Of a DNA stretch of 33,022 nt, positions 20,037 to 28,825 are shown piece after piece. Numbering within the stretch: the first letter of the stretch is position 1; each line of letters opens with the position of its first letter. Location of the stretch: contig JACZKK010000218.1 in the NCBI GenBank assembly GCA_014860115.1, positions 1 to 33,022 of the forward strand. The letters run 5' to 3'. The translations under genes and the position numbers were made by a program. Origin of the DNA: Ignavibacteriaceae bacterium (GTDB taxonomy: Bacteria > Bacteroidota > Ignavibacteria > Ignavibacteriales > Ignavibacteriaceae). Under the pieces are notes generated by a model, which saw only the letters and a program-made list of their open reading frames with translations, did not search any database and was not told the origin of the DNA.

Positions 20037-20402
20037 TTAAAATGCATTTTCGTAATGATTGACTTGAGGATTATTTAAGTCCTCAAATAAAATTGCAAAG
20101 ACATCAAATCGACAATCAATTTCGGTTATTCCTTTATCGAAAAGATAAAGCTCCGCCATCTTCCTTATTTGCTTCTGTTTGTTTTTGGTTATCGAATATT
20201 CAGGTTCACCAAACTCAAGATTTTGTCTTGCTTTCACTTCAACAAACACAGTGCATTTATCTTTTGGATCCATTGCAATTATATCAATTTCACCGTGACT
20301 GAAACGGTAATTGCGTTCAATGATCTCAAAACCTTTTTCAGTAAGAATTTTGGCTGCGAGATCCTCCCCTCTTTTTGCGAGTTCCTTTTTATCCAGATTC
20401 AT
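20037..20402 (-). CDS. yraN: YraN family (UPF0102) endonuclease-like protein
   Basis: A 121-residue protein of the YraN/UPF0102 family, which has a restriction-endonuclease-like core but no firmly assigned role. The motif set is clear: GEDLAAKILTEKGFEIIERNYR, GEIDIIA (E38, D40), and VFVEVKARQ (E55, K57), giving the E-x-D...E-x-K arrangement of PD-(D/E)XK nucleases. The C-terminal helix region CRFDVFAI completes the fold. It begins two bases after the rnhB stop, so it belongs to the ubiA-rnhB-yraN unit; rnhB-yraN adjacency is common across bacteria. Confidence 0.95.
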   Translation of the reverse strand: MNLDKKELAKRGEDLAAKILTEKGFEIIERNYRFSHGEIDIIAMDPKDKCTVFVEVKARQNLEFGEPEYSITKNKQKQIRKMAELYLFDKGITEIDCRFDVFAILFEDLNNPQVNHYENAF

Positions 20403-20404
20403 AC

Positions 20405-21043
20405 TTATTGATCATTAATTACATTTGTGTCAAACTCAAGCACTTGCTGCTCTGTTAAAATATTTTTGAGAAATGATTTTCTATGAAGCGGACTTGGACC
20501 AAGCTTTTGGATAATTTCTCTGTGCTGCCGGGTTGGATATCCTTTATTCTGCTCCCACAAGTAAACAGGATATTTAACGGCAAGCTTTTTCATTAATCTA
20601 TCACGAGTAACCTTTGCAAGTATAGATGCAGCAGCAATTGAAAATGATTTTGAGTCACCTTTTACTATTGTTATAACCGGAATATCTGATTGAAATTTTC
20701 TGTTGCCATCCACCAAAACCAAATCAGGTTTGATTTCAAGATCATCTACGGCTTGCCTCATTGCAAGTAAGGACGCTTGAAGAATGTTTACTTCATCAAT
20801 CACGTTATGTTCAACTACAGAAACGGAATATGCAATTGCTAAAGAAATAATTTTTTCATACAATTCTTCCCGCTGTTTCTCAGTCAAAAGTTTCGAATCA
20901 TTTACACCTTTAATATTCGTTTTCTTGTTGAAAATTACTGCAGCAGCCACAACCGGACCAGCAAGGGGTCCTCTTCCGGCTTCATCAACACCTGCGAGAT
21001 ATTTTACTTTGCTCTTTAAATATTTTTTATCGAATGATTTCAT
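20405..21043 (-). CDS. rnhB: Ribonuclease HII
   Basis: Cleaves RNA in RNA-DNA hybrids and at single ribonucleotides misincorporated in DNA. The 212-residue length is normal. The active-site residues are all visible: D20 and E21 in AGVDEAGRGPLAGPVVAAAV, D112 in PDLVLVDGN, and D148 in ILAKVTRDRLM. The motif YPVYLWEQNKGYPTRQHREII with LGPSPLHRKSF is the usual C-terminal substrate-binding region. Its ATG overlaps the stop of the upstream prenyltransferase by four bases (ATGA), and yraN follows after two bases. Confidence 0.98.
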   Translation of the reverse strand: MKSFDKKYLKSKVKYLAGVDEAGRGPLAGPVVAAAVIFNKKTNIKGVNDSKLLTEKQREELYEKIISLAIAYSVSVVEHNVIDEVNILQASLLAMRQAVDDLEIKPDLVLVDGNRKFQSDIPVITIVKGDSKSFSIAAASILAKVTRDRLMKKLAVKYPVYLWEQNKGYPTRQHREIIQKLGPSPLHRKSFLKNILTEQQVLEFDTNVINDQ

Positions 21044-21879
21044 ACTCCGAGATAGATCGCGATTAATCCAAAGATCATATTTAATTTTAAGAGACTACTT
21101 ATTTTATTCAAACTTCCGGGTTTTTGCTTCTCGAAAAGCAACTTCATTGAATAGACTAAAATAGGATTTACAGTTACCATAACAATTATGAAATATTCTA
21201 TTTTGTATAGTTCAGTGAGAAAAGGATAAAGTGTAAAAAGTACAAGCAAAAGGGTTATTACAAGAATCAGAACTTTTGACTTCTGAAAACCAAACTTTAT
21301 CGGGAAAGTATTTATATCAGCCTTTCTATCACCTTCAACATCTTCCATATCTTTTACAATTTCCCGGATAAGATTTATAAGCATAGCAAATAATGCCGGA
21401 ACAATTGCCGCATTCGGATTGTCTACAACAACACCTCCGAAAATAAAAACGAGACCAGTTAAGAAAGCAACTGTAATATTTCCAACAAGGGGAATTCGCT
21501 TCAGATATTTTGAATAGAAAAAAAGCATAAGAATTGAAATAAGAACAATTGCTAATGCTTTTTCATTTACTAATGCTGAGATAACTATTGATGTGACAAT
21601 AAAAATAAAATAAAGAGCATACGCTTCTTTGATGGTTATATTACCTGAAGGAATCGGGCGAAGAGGTTTGTTGATCTTATCTATTCCGATATCATAGATA
21701 TCATTTAAAACATTTCCTGAGGCCATCACAAGCGAAGCTGCAAGCGCTGCAAGAAATATATTGAGTCCTGAAAATTTATCAGGAGAACAAATGACTGCTG
21801 CAACAATTACAGAAATGAAAGTAATTAAAAAATTAATTGGTCGAATAAGTTTTACTATAGCTGTAAGTTTTTCTGACAA
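21040..21879 (-). CDS. UbiA family prenyltransferase (DGGGP synthase-like)
   Basis: A 279-residue membrane prenyltransferase with about eight to nine hydrophobic helices. The two Asp-rich Mg-diphosphate motifs are NDIYDIGIDKINKPLRPIPSG (N59, D60, D63, D67) and KDMEDVEGDRKADINTFP (D177, D180, D184). The first motif closely resembles geranylgeranylglyceryl-phosphate geranylgeranyltransferases of archaeal lipid synthesis, which also occur in FCB bacteria. Menaquinone or other quinone prenylation remains possible. The start is TTG at 21879; upstream in frame to a TAG I see no ATG. It is first in a unit with rnhB and yraN. Confidence 0.85.
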   Translation of the reverse strand: MSEKLTAIVKLIRPINFLITFISVIVAAVICSPDKFSGLNIFLAALAASLVMASGNVLNDIYDIGIDKINKPLRPIPSGNITIKEAYALYFIFIVTSIVISALVNEKALAIVLISILMLFFYSKYLKRIPLVGNITVAFLTGLVFIFGGVVVDNPNAAIVPALFAMLINLIREIVKDMEDVEGDRKADINTFPIKFGFQKSKVLILVITLLLVLFTLYPFLTELYKIEYFIIVMVTVNPILVYSMKLLFEKQKPGSLNKISSLLKLNMIFGLIAIYLGV

Positions 21880-22064: not shown

Positions 22065-22508
22065 TTACCCCTGGTCAAAGTCAATTTTACGATGTGTACC
22101 GTCACAGAATGGTTTGTTATTTGAACCACCACAACGGCAAAGTGCAATTGAACCTTCTTTGGTTTCTTCTTTCCCATCAGTTCCTACAAAAACGAATTCA
22201 CCTTTAATAAGGTATGGTCCGCCTTTGCTTACCTGGACAGTGGTTTGTGATTCCTGAGATTGTGCAGGCTGTGCTTTTTGTTCGCTCATTTTATTATTCC
22301 TTTCATAAGATAATGCCCCGGAGGGACAATTATCAACAATTTTAATTATTTGTTCTGTTGTTCCGGCTGACATATCAATCCATGGTCTTCGTTTCGGATT
22401 GAAGATCGCCAGTGATGCTTTCCAGCATTTGGTTGAATGTATACAAACATCCGGTTTCCAGATTACAGTTATATCTTCATTTGAATACGTCTTTCGTCGT
22501 TCAGCCAC
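22065..22508 (-). CDS. Fused (4Fe-4S) mono-cluster / CDGSH iron-sulfur protein
   Basis: A 147-residue fusion. The N-terminal part (1-70) matches the Fer4_19/YjdI-type mono-cluster domain: ITVIWKPDVCIHSTKCWKA and VDNCPSGALSYER (C22, C28, C61, with H24 nearby). A low-complexity Gln/Ser/Ala linker spans about 75-93. The C-terminal part is a CDGSH zinc-finger-like [2Fe-2S] domain: CRCGGSNNKPFCDGTH with C124, C126, C135 and H139, the usual 3-Cys 1-His ligand set. Likely a small cytoplasmic electron-transfer or redox-sensing protein; partners unknown. The start is GTG at 22508, with AGGAG about 7 bases upstream. It follows the Omp85 gene by 29 bases. Confidence 0.92.
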   Translation of the reverse strand: MAERRKTYSNEDITVIWKPDVCIHSTKCWKASLAIFNPKRRPWIDMSAGTTEQIIKIVDNCPSGALSYERNNKMSEQKAQPAQSQESQTTVQVSKGGPYLIKGEFVFVGTDGKEETKEGSIALCRCGGSNNKPFCDGTHRKIDFDQG

Positions 22509-22537: not shown

Positions 22538-24304
22538 TCAAAACTCATTAATAATTCCAAAATGAATTTTCCCTTCGCTAAATGAATCGCCTTGTGCAAG
22601 AGCAAAGCTAACACCCAGCAGACCGATTGTAGTTTCCACTGTAATACCAAGCCCGTAACCGAAAATATATTCCTCCAATTTTGCTATTCCTTTTTCAGGG
22701 ACTGCATCAAGGAAATAATATCCAGCGTCAAAAAATAGAAACGCATACGATCTCTGTGTAAGCATTAAACGATATTCCAGATTTGACCAGGCTATACGGG
22801 AGGCAAGAAATTGCTCTTCCCTGTAACCTCTGACTGTTCTCGTTCCACCGAACCGCCACAGATCACTCTGCTCAAAAAATGGTCCGTTGAGCTCTTTACC
22901 ATTCACACTTATAGCAATGATATTACGGAAGAAAATTTCATAAAAAGCACCAAAGCCAACAGTAATTCTTTGAAGATTAGGATCTGTTTCCAATCCGGGA
23001 GTTATGTACTCAGCAGGACCATTAATTTTTTTTCTGCTGAAGGAGTAAACAGTTTCGAAAAGAAAGCCACCTGTTGATGCTATTGGATCATCTCTTAAGT
23101 CTATCTTCAATCCGAGACCTGTAGTAAGAGAGGAAGAATTATAGACAGTAAAGACAGGGATCGTTCGCTCGGTTGGAATTATTTCTTCAGTTGAAACGAA
23201 AGCAGAAGCTGAAATATCTTCCGTTGCAAGAAATTCCAAAGCTCCGCCTAATCTTCTCTGCACATAAGTTGTATCCTGTATACGCTGAAAAAGATCTGCG
23301 TTCAAATTAAAAGGATAGCCGAACAACCATGGTTCTAAATATTTAAGTTCAAGTTCCTGGGATTCACGGTTAAGTTTTTGCCATCGTACTGCTGCTGCTC
23401 TCCCTGTTCCAAAAATATTTCGTAGAGTTACATTTACTAATCCTGTTACGTAACCGGTTTCATTATCATTTGCCGGAGGCACATAACCAATTATTCCATC
23501 AAAGTTATTTGTGTTTCTTTCTTTTACGTTTATTAGCAAAACACCATTATTCTGTGAATCAATATAAAACTGGGGAACTGGAACCGGATCGAAGTAACGA
23601 AGTTTATTTAATCGCCGCGGCAGACTTACAATTTTTTGCTGAGAGTATTCTTCGCCTGAATCAATTCTTAATTCTCTTGTAATTACATAATCTTTTGTAG
23701 AAGTGTTACCAGCGACTTCAATTTTATCGATACGACTCTGCCTTCCTTCTTCAAGCGCAATATAAATATCAGCATAATGATCCTTGCTCACTGAATCATC
23801 ATAAAAATGAACAGACTGAATCTTAACTGCTGCGAAAGGAAATCCCCTGTTTTCAAAATCTGTCAACAAACTGGAGATACTTGTTTCGATTTCATATCGA
23901 TTGAAAATCTCTCCTCTTAAATAATTCAAAGATGAGATGAAATCGTCGATGTTAACTGAATCTGATGCTTTGAGAAATAATTCCTTCACAAAGGTAGGCT
24001 GACCTTCATCTACATTGAGAAGTAAGTTCACTTTTTGAGAATCGGTTGATAACTCAAACTGTGTGCCTTCGAATATAAAATTGAAATAACCGTTTGATAT
24101 TAGATTGGTCGAGATTCGTGAGAGCGATGTATCAATTACGCCCGGATAAAAATTTTGTCCCTCATTTAAGCCAGCCCACTGTTTTATTTCCGCATCACTA
24201 AAAATCCTGTTACTGTTAATCTCTATCTTCTCTATTTTTTGTGCAAATACTGCAATAGAAAATAAAATAAAGTACAATAAAATATTTTTAGTCGGGTGAA
24301 TCAT
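22538..24304 (-). CDS. Omp85 superfamily outer-membrane protein (BamA/TamA-like)
   Basis: A 588-residue outer-membrane protein. Signal peptide at about residues 1-21 (ending AVFAQ). The periplasmic part to about 260 looks like POTRA repeats (KIEKIEINSNRIFSDAEIKQW; SRIDKIEVAGNTSTKDYVITREL). The C-terminal 16-strand barrel contains the signature loop-6 motif FGGTRTVRGYRE at 485-495 and ends in a phenylalanine. It is shorter than BamA (about 800) and closer to TamA or to a single-partner secretion/lipid protein, so its substrate is open. The ATG at 24304 overlaps the kinase gene by 17 bases, implying co-translation. Confidence 0.9.
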   Translation of the reverse strand: MIHPTKNILLYFILFSIAVFAQKIEKIEINSNRIFSDAEIKQWAGLNEGQNFYPGVIDTSLSRISTNLISNGYFNFIFEGTQFELSTDSQKVNLLLNVDEGQPTFVKELFLKASDSVNIDDFISSLNYLRGEIFNRYEIETSISSLLTDFENRGFPFAAVKIQSVHFYDDSVSKDHYADIYIALEEGRQSRIDKIEVAGNTSTKDYVITRELRIDSGEEYSQQKIVSLPRRLNKLRYFDPVPVPQFYIDSQNNGVLLINVKERNTNNFDGIIGYVPPANDNETGYVTGLVNVTLRNIFGTGRAAAVRWQKLNRESQELELKYLEPWLFGYPFNLNADLFQRIQDTTYVQRRLGGALEFLATEDISASAFVSTEEIIPTERTIPVFTVYNSSSLTTGLGLKIDLRDDPIASTGGFLFETVYSFSRKKINGPAEYITPGLETDPNLQRITVGFGAFYEIFFRNIIAISVNGKELNGPFFEQSDLWRFGGTRTVRGYREEQFLASRIAWSNLEYRLMLTQRSYAFLFFDAGYYFLDAVPEKGIAKLEEYIFGYGLGITVETTIGLLGVSFALAQGDSFSEGKIHFGIINEF

Positions 24305-28003: not shown

Positions 28004-28825
28004 TCAACTAAAGTAATTAAGATAAATCCATATTGCCGGTGCACTAAAAAGCAATGAGTCAAACCTGTCAAAAAAACCACCGTGACCTGGAATTAACGAA
28101 GATGAATCTTTCACTTCAGAATCTCTTTTGATTAATGACTCAACTAAATCACCGATTTGACCTATTGTACCGATAATAATTCCTACAACAATAACATTCA
28201 TCCAGCTTAAAGAATTCAAAACTAAAACTTTTGCAAAAATCATCGCACCAACAGAAAAAATAAAACCAAAAATTGCTCCTTCCCAGCTTTTCTTGGGACT
28301 AACACGCGGGAATAATTTATGCCTGCCAAAATTTATCCCCCCGTAATATGCAGCAGAATCACCTACCCAAATTGAAGCAAAGATTGATATAATAAAATAT
28401 ACACCAAGATTTTCTGTATAAATGTCATTTGAATAAAACTCACGAACTGAAATAAGTGAAGCAGAAAAAACTCCAATGTAAAATATTCCAAGAAAAGTTG
28501 AACCAAGATTAAAAATTGCTGAACCTTTATTACGAAATAGTTCAAAAGTTAAAAGTGCTAAAGAAGATAGAAGAATGATAAAGACAGGACCGACTAAGTC
28601 AAGAAATTGATTAAGAAGAAAAACGAAAATGATTATCCCGCCAAGAAACAAATTTACATTTGCACCTTTATGCCTGACGAGAAGACTGAACTCGTAAAAC
28701 GAGAGCAGACCAATGATGACAACAAAGGAAAAGAAATAATACCCGCCAAGATAGCTGGCAATAAGTATAACCGGGATACCAATTAAAGAAACAAATACTC
28801 TCTTTAGATTTTCACTCGTCGGCAT
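28004..28825 (-). CDS. cdsA: Phosphatidate cytidylyltransferase
   Basis: Makes CDP-diacylglycerol from CTP and phosphatidic acid, the branch point of bacterial phospholipid synthesis, in the inner membrane. The 273-residue protein has about eight hydrophobic helices. The family motifs SPKKSWEGAIFGFIFSVG and, near the C-terminus, GDLVESLIKRDSEVKDSSSLIPGHGGFFDRFDSLLFSAP (the K-R-x4-K-D signature) are intact. Its ATG lies 14 bases inside the preceding zinc-ribbon/DUF2007 gene, so translation is coupled. rimO follows closely. Confidence 0.96.
   Translation of the reverse strand: MPTSENLKRVFVSLIGIPVILIASYLGGYYFFSFVVIIGLLSFYEFSLLVRHKGANVNLFLGGIIIFVFLLNQFLDLVGPVFIILLSSLALLTFELFRNKGSAIFNLGSTFLGIFYIGVFSASLISVREFYSNDIYTENLGVYFIISIFASIWVGDSAAYYGGINFGRHKLFPRVSPKKSWEGAIFGFIFSVGAMIFAKVLVLNSLSWMNVIVVGIIIGTIGQIGDLVESLIKRDSEVKDSSSLIPGHGGFFDRFDSLLFSAPAIWIYLNYFS

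Follow-up and report, generated by a model that had tools for sequence, protein, structure and literature searches.

A bacterial UbiA prenyltransferase of probable DGGGP synthase type and its partner genes in class Ignavibacteria

We analysed a stretch of 33,022 nucleotides from an Ignavibacteriaceae bacterium (contig JACZKK010000218.1 of assembly GCA_014860115.1; hereafter the window) and found on its minus strand the gene of a UbiA-superfamily prenyltransferase (window UbiA) that is very probably a bacterial digeranylgeranylglyceryl phosphate (DGGGP) synthase acting between a GGGP synthase (GGGPS) and a geranylgeranyl reductase. This reading is based on homology, motif residues, predicted fold, tree position, the partner genes and their co-distribution and, in some relatives, the neighbourhood of the UbiA and reductase genes. 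As a relative of DGGGP synthases is accompanied here by probable enzymes of the preceding and following steps, the host, judged by its gene content, probably makes archaeal-style lipids and may have mixed membranes. Archaeal-type ether-lipid genes are already known for the FCB group from three studies, which we draw on, like the other papers cited here, as excerpts: bacterial sequences from Bacteroidetes were placed among crenarchaeal DGGGP synthases (Lombard et al. 2012, PMC3533463), orthologues of GGGPS and DGGGPS were reported in 12 of 12 FCB phyla surveyed with Ignavibacteria tabulated (Coleman et al. 2019, PMC6431249), and a GGGPS/DGGGPS pathway was described in Cloacimonetes and other FCB bacteria and found active in E. 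coli (Villanueva et al. 2020, PMC7852524). The initial annotation had suggested an archaeal-lipid-type prenyltransferase in an FCB-group bacterium; the host is indeed a member of class Ignavibacteria, and the GGGP synthase in the genome and the tree position described below support the enzyme reading, the reasoning from the RPIPSG stretch being weak.

The open reading frame runs from 21879 down to 21040 over 279 codons, and the plus strand of the same segment contains many stops in the frame translated. The protein matches PF01040 (UbiA) in Pfam with 164 bits (E 4e-48), and counterparts 35-62% identical to it occur in 41 other class genomes, one of them with an internal stop (G259) and one truncated at a contig end (G097). 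The stop of the gene and the start of the RNase HII gene share 4 bases (ATGA), and RNase HII adjoins UbiA in 35 of the 37 class loci examined, while in one of the remaining two the contig breaks off. Given these 41 matches and the conserved neighbour, the frame does not arise by chance, which confirms that 21040-21879 is a real gene. In an alignment of 29 class sequences (the window protein and 28 of 29 relatives, L039 being left out as a near twin of L038) the mean column identity was 52% and 29 positions were invariant. The features of the window are summarized in the table.

Table. Features of the window that are discussed in the text
Feature	Position	Strand	Remark
UPF0102 (YraN) family protein	20037..20402	-	conserved neighbour
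RNase HII	20405..21043	-	shares 4 bases with the UbiA stop; conserved neighbour to which no part in lipid synthesis is assigned
UbiA-superfamily prenyltransferase, DGGGP synthase type	21040..21879	-	279 aa, TTG start
Second Asp motif D177-x2-D180-x3-D184, within REIVKDMEDVEGD	21328..21351	-	equivalent to D180/D183/D187 of MjDGGGPS; alignment
Motif 2, Y122-x4-K127	21499..21516	-	equivalent to Y125/K130 of MjDGGGPS; alignment
NKPLRPIPSG stretch, residues 70-79	21643..21672	-	not diagnostic
First Asp motif N59-x3-D63-x3-D67	21679..21705	-	equivalent to N62/D66/D70 of MjDGGGPS; alignment
Fusion of 4Fe-4S and CDGSH domains	22065..22508		between UbiA and Omp85
POTRA/Omp85 outer-membrane protein	22538..24304	-	upstream neighbour
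Cytidylyltransferase family protein, CdsA type	28004..28825	-	PF01148, 199.5 bits

Among proteins of known structure, window UbiA most resembles a DGGGP synthase. Its top PDB sequence match in a phmmer search was 6m31, the DGGGP synthase of M. jannaschii (MjDGGGPS; E 2.1e-43, 36% identity), followed by chlorophyll synthase (1e-13) and the UbiA proteins of A. fulgidus (9e-11) and A. pernix (2e-5). A structure predicted from the 29 sequences had a mean pLDDT of 92.9, and the resulting model superposed best on the two MjDGGGPS structures (6m31: Z 32.6, rmsd 3.2 over 277 residues; 7bpu: Z 32.2), with the next other protein at Z 25.5. All entries with Z of at least 18.8 were of the UbiA type, and farnesyl and polyprenyl synthases reached at most 15.9. 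Thus, window UbiA carries the UbiA superfamily domain and is predicted to adopt the fold of a DGGGP synthase, and its likeness to MjDGGGPS extends to eight motif residues and the neighbourhood in the tree.

Among the best 25 of 32 NCBIfam matches, the highest score was that of PRK12884 (NF009523; a prenyltransferase model that states no acceptor) with 231 bits, below its cut-off, and the second that of PRK12882 (GGGP geranylgeranyltransferase) with 213 bits against a cut-off of 296. As five of seven archaeal proteins that we tried also fell below every NCBIfam cut-off, including a Methanothermococcus protein 62% identical to MjDGGGPS, such a cut-off is no marker of this family and was dropped as a criterion of membership. 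MenA, heme O synthase (CyoE/CtaB) and chlorophyll synthase (ChlG) share the UbiA superfamily and similar motifs with window UbiA, but they occupy separate positions in the tree and their models scored at most 95 bits, again among the best 25 of 32 matches (chlorophyll synthase 95, heme O synthase 54, MenA 37.8). We therefore rejected MenA as an identity of window UbiA: the score is low, and the genome has its own MenA (L004; 307 bits, over the cut-off), which is placed apart in the tree. Heme O synthase is likewise a separate gene over its cut-off.

We compared window UbiA with MjDGGGPS by alignment at 12 positions, taking the roles of the motif residues from the published work on MjDGGGPS (PMC9385802). 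All eight motif residues (N62, D66, D70, Y125, K130, D180, D183 and D187) are identical, the first Asp motif of window UbiA reading NDIYDIGID (residues 59-67), and the tunnel residue F148 is also kept. Two positions differ (I29 to V and E190 to A), and S171 falls on an alignment gap. Since motifs of these types also occur in other UbiA enzymes, the residues indicate competence rather than specificity. The NKPLRPIPSG stretch, which the initial annotation had taken to distinguish archaeal-type enzymes from menaquinone or heme enzymes, is present exactly as quoted, but it does not make that distinction: RP[IL]PSG occurs in 10 of 61 FCB, 29 of 49 archaeal, 2 of 6 paralogue and 3 of 7 other UbiA rows. 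RPIPSG is found in a chlorophyll synthase and in the genome's own heme O synthase, and the variant RPLPSG in its phosphoribosyltransferase-type UbiA, so that we rejected the stretch as a marker of DGGGP synthases. KDxED in the second Asp motif separates DGGGP synthase-type rows from other UbiA proteins better, being present in 53 of 61 FCB rows, in none of the 6 paralogue and 7 other UbiA rows, and in 44 of 49 archaeal rows, the archaeal count being partly circular because KDxED was one of the two patterns in the scan by which loci were fetched.

To place the protein we calculated a quick tree of 123 rows with heme O synthase as outgroup (37 loci that were near duplicates, partial copies or record repeats, such as L153 = L031 and L137 = L046, were left out) and a careful tree of 53 of these rows with chlorophyll synthases as outgroup. 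In the larger tree window UbiA lies inside a bacterial clade of 61 rows (SH-aLRT 96), and in the smaller one 24 bacterial rows including the window were united at 99/98. This clade joins the one TACK row available, from a Desulfurococcales archaeon, with moderate support (94/75 for 53 rows, 84 for 123 rows), and the remaining archaeal DGGGP synthases lie further out in the 123-row tree. The genome's MenA, its CyoE and two other UbiA proteins are outside the bacterial clade in the 123-row tree, where they were included. Next to the bacterial clade plus L151 stands a group of 12 UbiA rows (support 82). It consists of AfUbiA, six paralogues, two rows of chlorophyll synthases and three proteins of the genome, namely MenA, the phosphoribosyltransferase-type UbiA and a further UbiA protein (L005); these rows have long branches, and their exact placement is uncertain. 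The trees hence place window UbiA with the DGGGP synthases of archaea and FCB bacteria and apart from other UbiA subfamilies, with other UbiA groups joining nearby; the initial annotation had named placement in a MenA or other quinone clade as the result that would refute it, and the trees do not show such a placement.

The six paralogues, which are of the PRK12884 type, make up a separate UbiA group found in some Ignavibacteria and in one family of the phylum, f27 (L173, L174, L193, L191, L192 and L175). They bear on an alternative reading in which window UbiA prenylates another acceptor, such as a quinone precursor, a chlorophyll-like ring or some other compound, its likeness to DGGGP synthases being ancestral only. 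PRK12884, with its unstated acceptor, is the best NCBIfam model of window UbiA; paralogues of this type occur in relatives and in three f27 genomes examined (three of the six rows); 63 f27 genomes have a UbiA match and none has GGGPS; and in the 53-row tree the paralogues join directly after the Desulfurococcales row, near the window's clade (83/83). Window UbiA, however, is outside the paralogue clade (100/100) and within the bacterial rows, it carries KDxED, which all six paralogues lack, and one of the paralogues, L173, passes the PRK12884 cut-off that window UbiA does not reach. Moreover, MenA and heme O synthase are provided by separate genes, and GGGPS co-occurs with UbiA in all 42 genomes of the class sample. 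Together these results make another acceptor improbable.

The proposed role of window UbiA as a DGGGP synthase calls for partner enzymes, and a GGGP synthase, the absence of which the initial annotation had treated as decisive against its reading, was found in the genome. The protein (L001, contig C105), an enzyme for supplying the acceptor, exceeded the Pfam cut-off and those of three NCBIfam models (NF003198, 288 bits against 247; TIGR01769, 211 against 161.55; TIGR01768, 178 against 113.25). A geranylgeranyl reductase of the archaeal-lipid type is encoded on contig C41 (L008); it has the PF22578 GGR catalytic domain and scored 227 bits with TIGR02032 (cut-off 158.8), and its best NCBIfam match was the digeranylgeranylglycerophospholipid reductase model with 240 bits, below the cut-off of 780. 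This protein was searched from its first ATG, the frame continuing further upstream. The genome also encodes two polyprenyl synthases, one of which (L016) scored best with models of short-chain and GGPP synthases, none over its cut-off.

UbiA, GGGPS and reductase are located on three separate contigs. The genome is a draft of 222 contigs with a contamination estimate of 3.56%, a situation in which archaeal-type genes might be contaminants or recent arrivals. However, another genome of the genus (G294), which consists of one contig, carries the three genes there, and this, together with the conserved RNase HII neighbour, refutes contamination or recent transfer for the clade and leaves that explanation a negligible probability for the window.

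Combining these components suggests the following scheme. GGPP would come from one of the two polyprenyl synthases, and the GGGP synthase would form the preceding ether bond. Window UbiA would then use GGPP to add a geranylgeranyl group at the sn-2 hydroxyl that is still free in geranylgeranylglyceryl phosphate, its two Asp motifs holding Mg2+ and the diphosphate, and the reductase would subsequently saturate the isoprenoid chains. We infer the enzyme activity and the order of the steps, as well as the substitution of a CdsA-type enzyme for CarS, the glycerol chirality and the use of the product in the membrane.

We also searched the genome for the remaining enzymes of the archaeal pathway. 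For CDP-archaeol synthase (CarS) there was no PF01864 match at E <= 0.001, and glycerol-1-phosphate (G1P) dehydrogenase (EgsA/AraM) was not found: there was no PRK00843 match at E <= 1e-30, and the sole PF13685 match, a candidate by its Fe-ADH_2 domain, was rejected as it is AroB by NCBIfam. Among 392 genomes of the phylum PRK00843 matched in two (G216 and G386), and the G216 protein was rejected as well, being a glycerol dehydrogenase (470 bits). As G1P dehydrogenase was not detected, we do not claim a complete archaeal phospholipid pathway. The CdsA-type protein of the window, whose best NCBIfam match is phosphatidate cytidylyltransferase (101 bits, below the cut-off of 385), is a candidate stand-in for the missing CarS. 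Two PlsY-family acyltransferase genes suggest that ester lipids are made too; in contrast to archaeal DGGGP synthases, window UbiA resides in a bacterium that has these two genes and in which G1P dehydrogenase and CarS were not found.

The same gene content resembles the pathway described in Cloacimonetes, which likewise consists of GGGPS, DGGGPS and reductase without G1P dehydrogenase and CarS and lies near Crenarchaeota in the tree (PMC7852524). According to the excerpts of that report, G1P dehydrogenase and CarS are missing in the FCB pathway and a bacterial enzyme replaces CarS; the excerpts of PMC6431249 give G1P dehydrogenase only for Fibrobacteres and Cloacimonetes among the FCB phyla surveyed. 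These gaps are relevant to a further possibility, namely that window UbiA is a DGGGP synthase whose product is either a minor lipid outside the membrane (a diether in dephosphorylated, acetylated or glycosylated form) or a diether based on glycerol-3-phosphate (G3P), in which case there would be no heterochiral mixed membrane. Apart from the two enzymes not found in the genome, this is favoured by the case of Bacillales, in which G1P is built into a C35 monoether and not into a diether phospholipid (PMC9179154), by the reported promiscuity of GGGPS for G3P (PMC7852524) and by the acceptance of G3P-based GGGP by DGGGPS (PMC9385802). The lipid-type reductase that accompanies the pair, on the other hand, fits a saturated diether lipid, and the Cloacimonetes enzyme pair yielded PG-archaeol in E. 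coli (PMC7852524). We regard such a product as a serious contender, somewhat short of an even chance, and retain DGGGP synthase activity between GGGPS and reductase as the preferred reading of the gene itself.

To determine how the three genes are distributed we searched the 392 phylum genomes with thresholds of E <= 1e-15 for UbiA and GGGPS and E <= 1e-45 for the reductase. UbiA was matched in 208 genomes, GGGPS in 133 and the reductase in 144. At this threshold GGGPS is accompanied by a UbiA match in 130 of 133 genomes, the three others (G017, G091 and G162) being outside the class, and 78 genomes have UbiA without GGGPS, 63 of which belong to f27. Within the class sample 42 genomes have UbiA at E <= 1e-42; the same 42 have GGGPS, and the reductase is present in 42 of 42. 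Absence was counted within the order, for which every one of the 42 genomes scored (of 113 listed) was covered: 28 have all three genes and 14 have neither GGGPS nor a strong UbiA match, with one weak UbiA match among them (G035, 8.8e-16). The reductase is absent in 13 of these 14 as well, the exception (G327) having the reductase without UbiA or GGGPS.

We mapped the absences onto a UvrA tree that contained 37 of these 42 genomes, five members of the window's family being left out (G156, G184, G216, G302 and G357). Two changes suffice to explain absence, one for a single branch of 13 genomes and one for G342 alone, and as two changes are too few for a sign test of joint loss we attach no significance to the pattern. 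The branch without GGGPS and window-type UbiA is of the Melioribacteraceae type (family f2), and the reductase is also absent there, with the exception of one genome.

The usual gene order around UbiA in the class is Omp85-UbiA-RnhB-YraN, often with MlaE next. Reductase and UbiA form close pairs, with 330-519 bases between the matched stretches, in 7 of 42 genomes (G216, G322, G124, G031, G240, G224 and G152; loci L281, L282, L285, L286, L287, L288 and L289); these close pairs come from six genera and three families, six are divergent and one is co-directional, and in all six close-pair genomes with Omp85 in view the reductase sits between Omp85 and UbiA. The distance is 9-11 kb in six more class genomes and 19 kb in one. 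UbiA and GGGPS share a contig in 8 of the 42 genomes, where they are at least 13.9 kb apart, and are on separate contigs in the other 34. The arrangement thus differs from that in Cloacimonetes, where GGGPS adjoins DGGGPS (PMC7852524): in Ignavibacteria these two genes are not adjoining in the eight one-contig genomes, and it is the reductase that adjoins UbiA in 7 of 42. Co-localisation of bacterial GGGPS and DGGGPS is apparently confined to Cloacimonetes, as far as the excerpts of PMC7852524 state.

For the gene-less branch the stretch of UbiA and RnhB was in view in seven genomes. In five of them (G019, G348, G176, G319 and G372; loci L259, L260, L263, L264 and L265), which lack GGGPS and reductase too, UbiA is missing between Omp85 and RnhB, and RnhB follows directly after Omp85, overlapping it or up to ~180 bases apart. 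In the other two, G035 and G310, the view was limited to the side of RnhB, and UbiA is absent there. At the window locus the space between UbiA and Omp85 is occupied by a fusion of divergent 4Fe-4S (PF06902) and CDGSH iron-binding (PF09360) domains, which was matched at this locus only among the class loci compared.

From this distribution we tentatively propose, as a wider hypothesis that we consider possible without giving it better than even prospects, that much of class Ignavibacteria makes, in addition to ester lipids, saturated diether phospholipids of the archaeol type by way of GGGPS, DGGGPS and reductase, that GGGPS, DGGGPS and reductase are kept or lost together, and that G1P comes from another bacterial enzyme. 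If this were true, heterochiral membranes would occur naturally in the class, and the Melioribacteraceae-type branch would serve as a built-in control. In the open-licence literature searched, there was no demonstration of isoprenoid ether phospholipids of the archaeal type in a bacterium's own membrane and no report of a pairing of UbiA and reductase or of lipid data for Ignavibacteria, Ignavibacterium or Melioribacter, including the excerpts of PMC11868695 and PMC11129491. The discoverers of the Cloacimonetes case obtained no culture (PMC7852524), and a member of Ignavibacteriaceae has been enriched, not isolated (PMC11129491); no ether-lipid analysis was seen in the excerpts of the latter report. 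As the three genes occur together, with synthase-reductase pairs in some genomes, and close relatives lack all three, these bacteria provide matched test organisms for the question of the lipid divide.

Two further UbiA loci were observed. L005 (contig C132 of the same genome, G000) encodes the further UbiA protein of the 12-row group, which has no NCBIfam match at E <= 1e-20 and whose neighbours, by eye, resemble a short-chain dehydrogenase and a diacylglycerol-kinase-like gene. L165 (contig C12 of G137) contains two tandem UbiA genes with a 4-base overlap, both of which fall into the bacterial DGGGP synthase-like clade.
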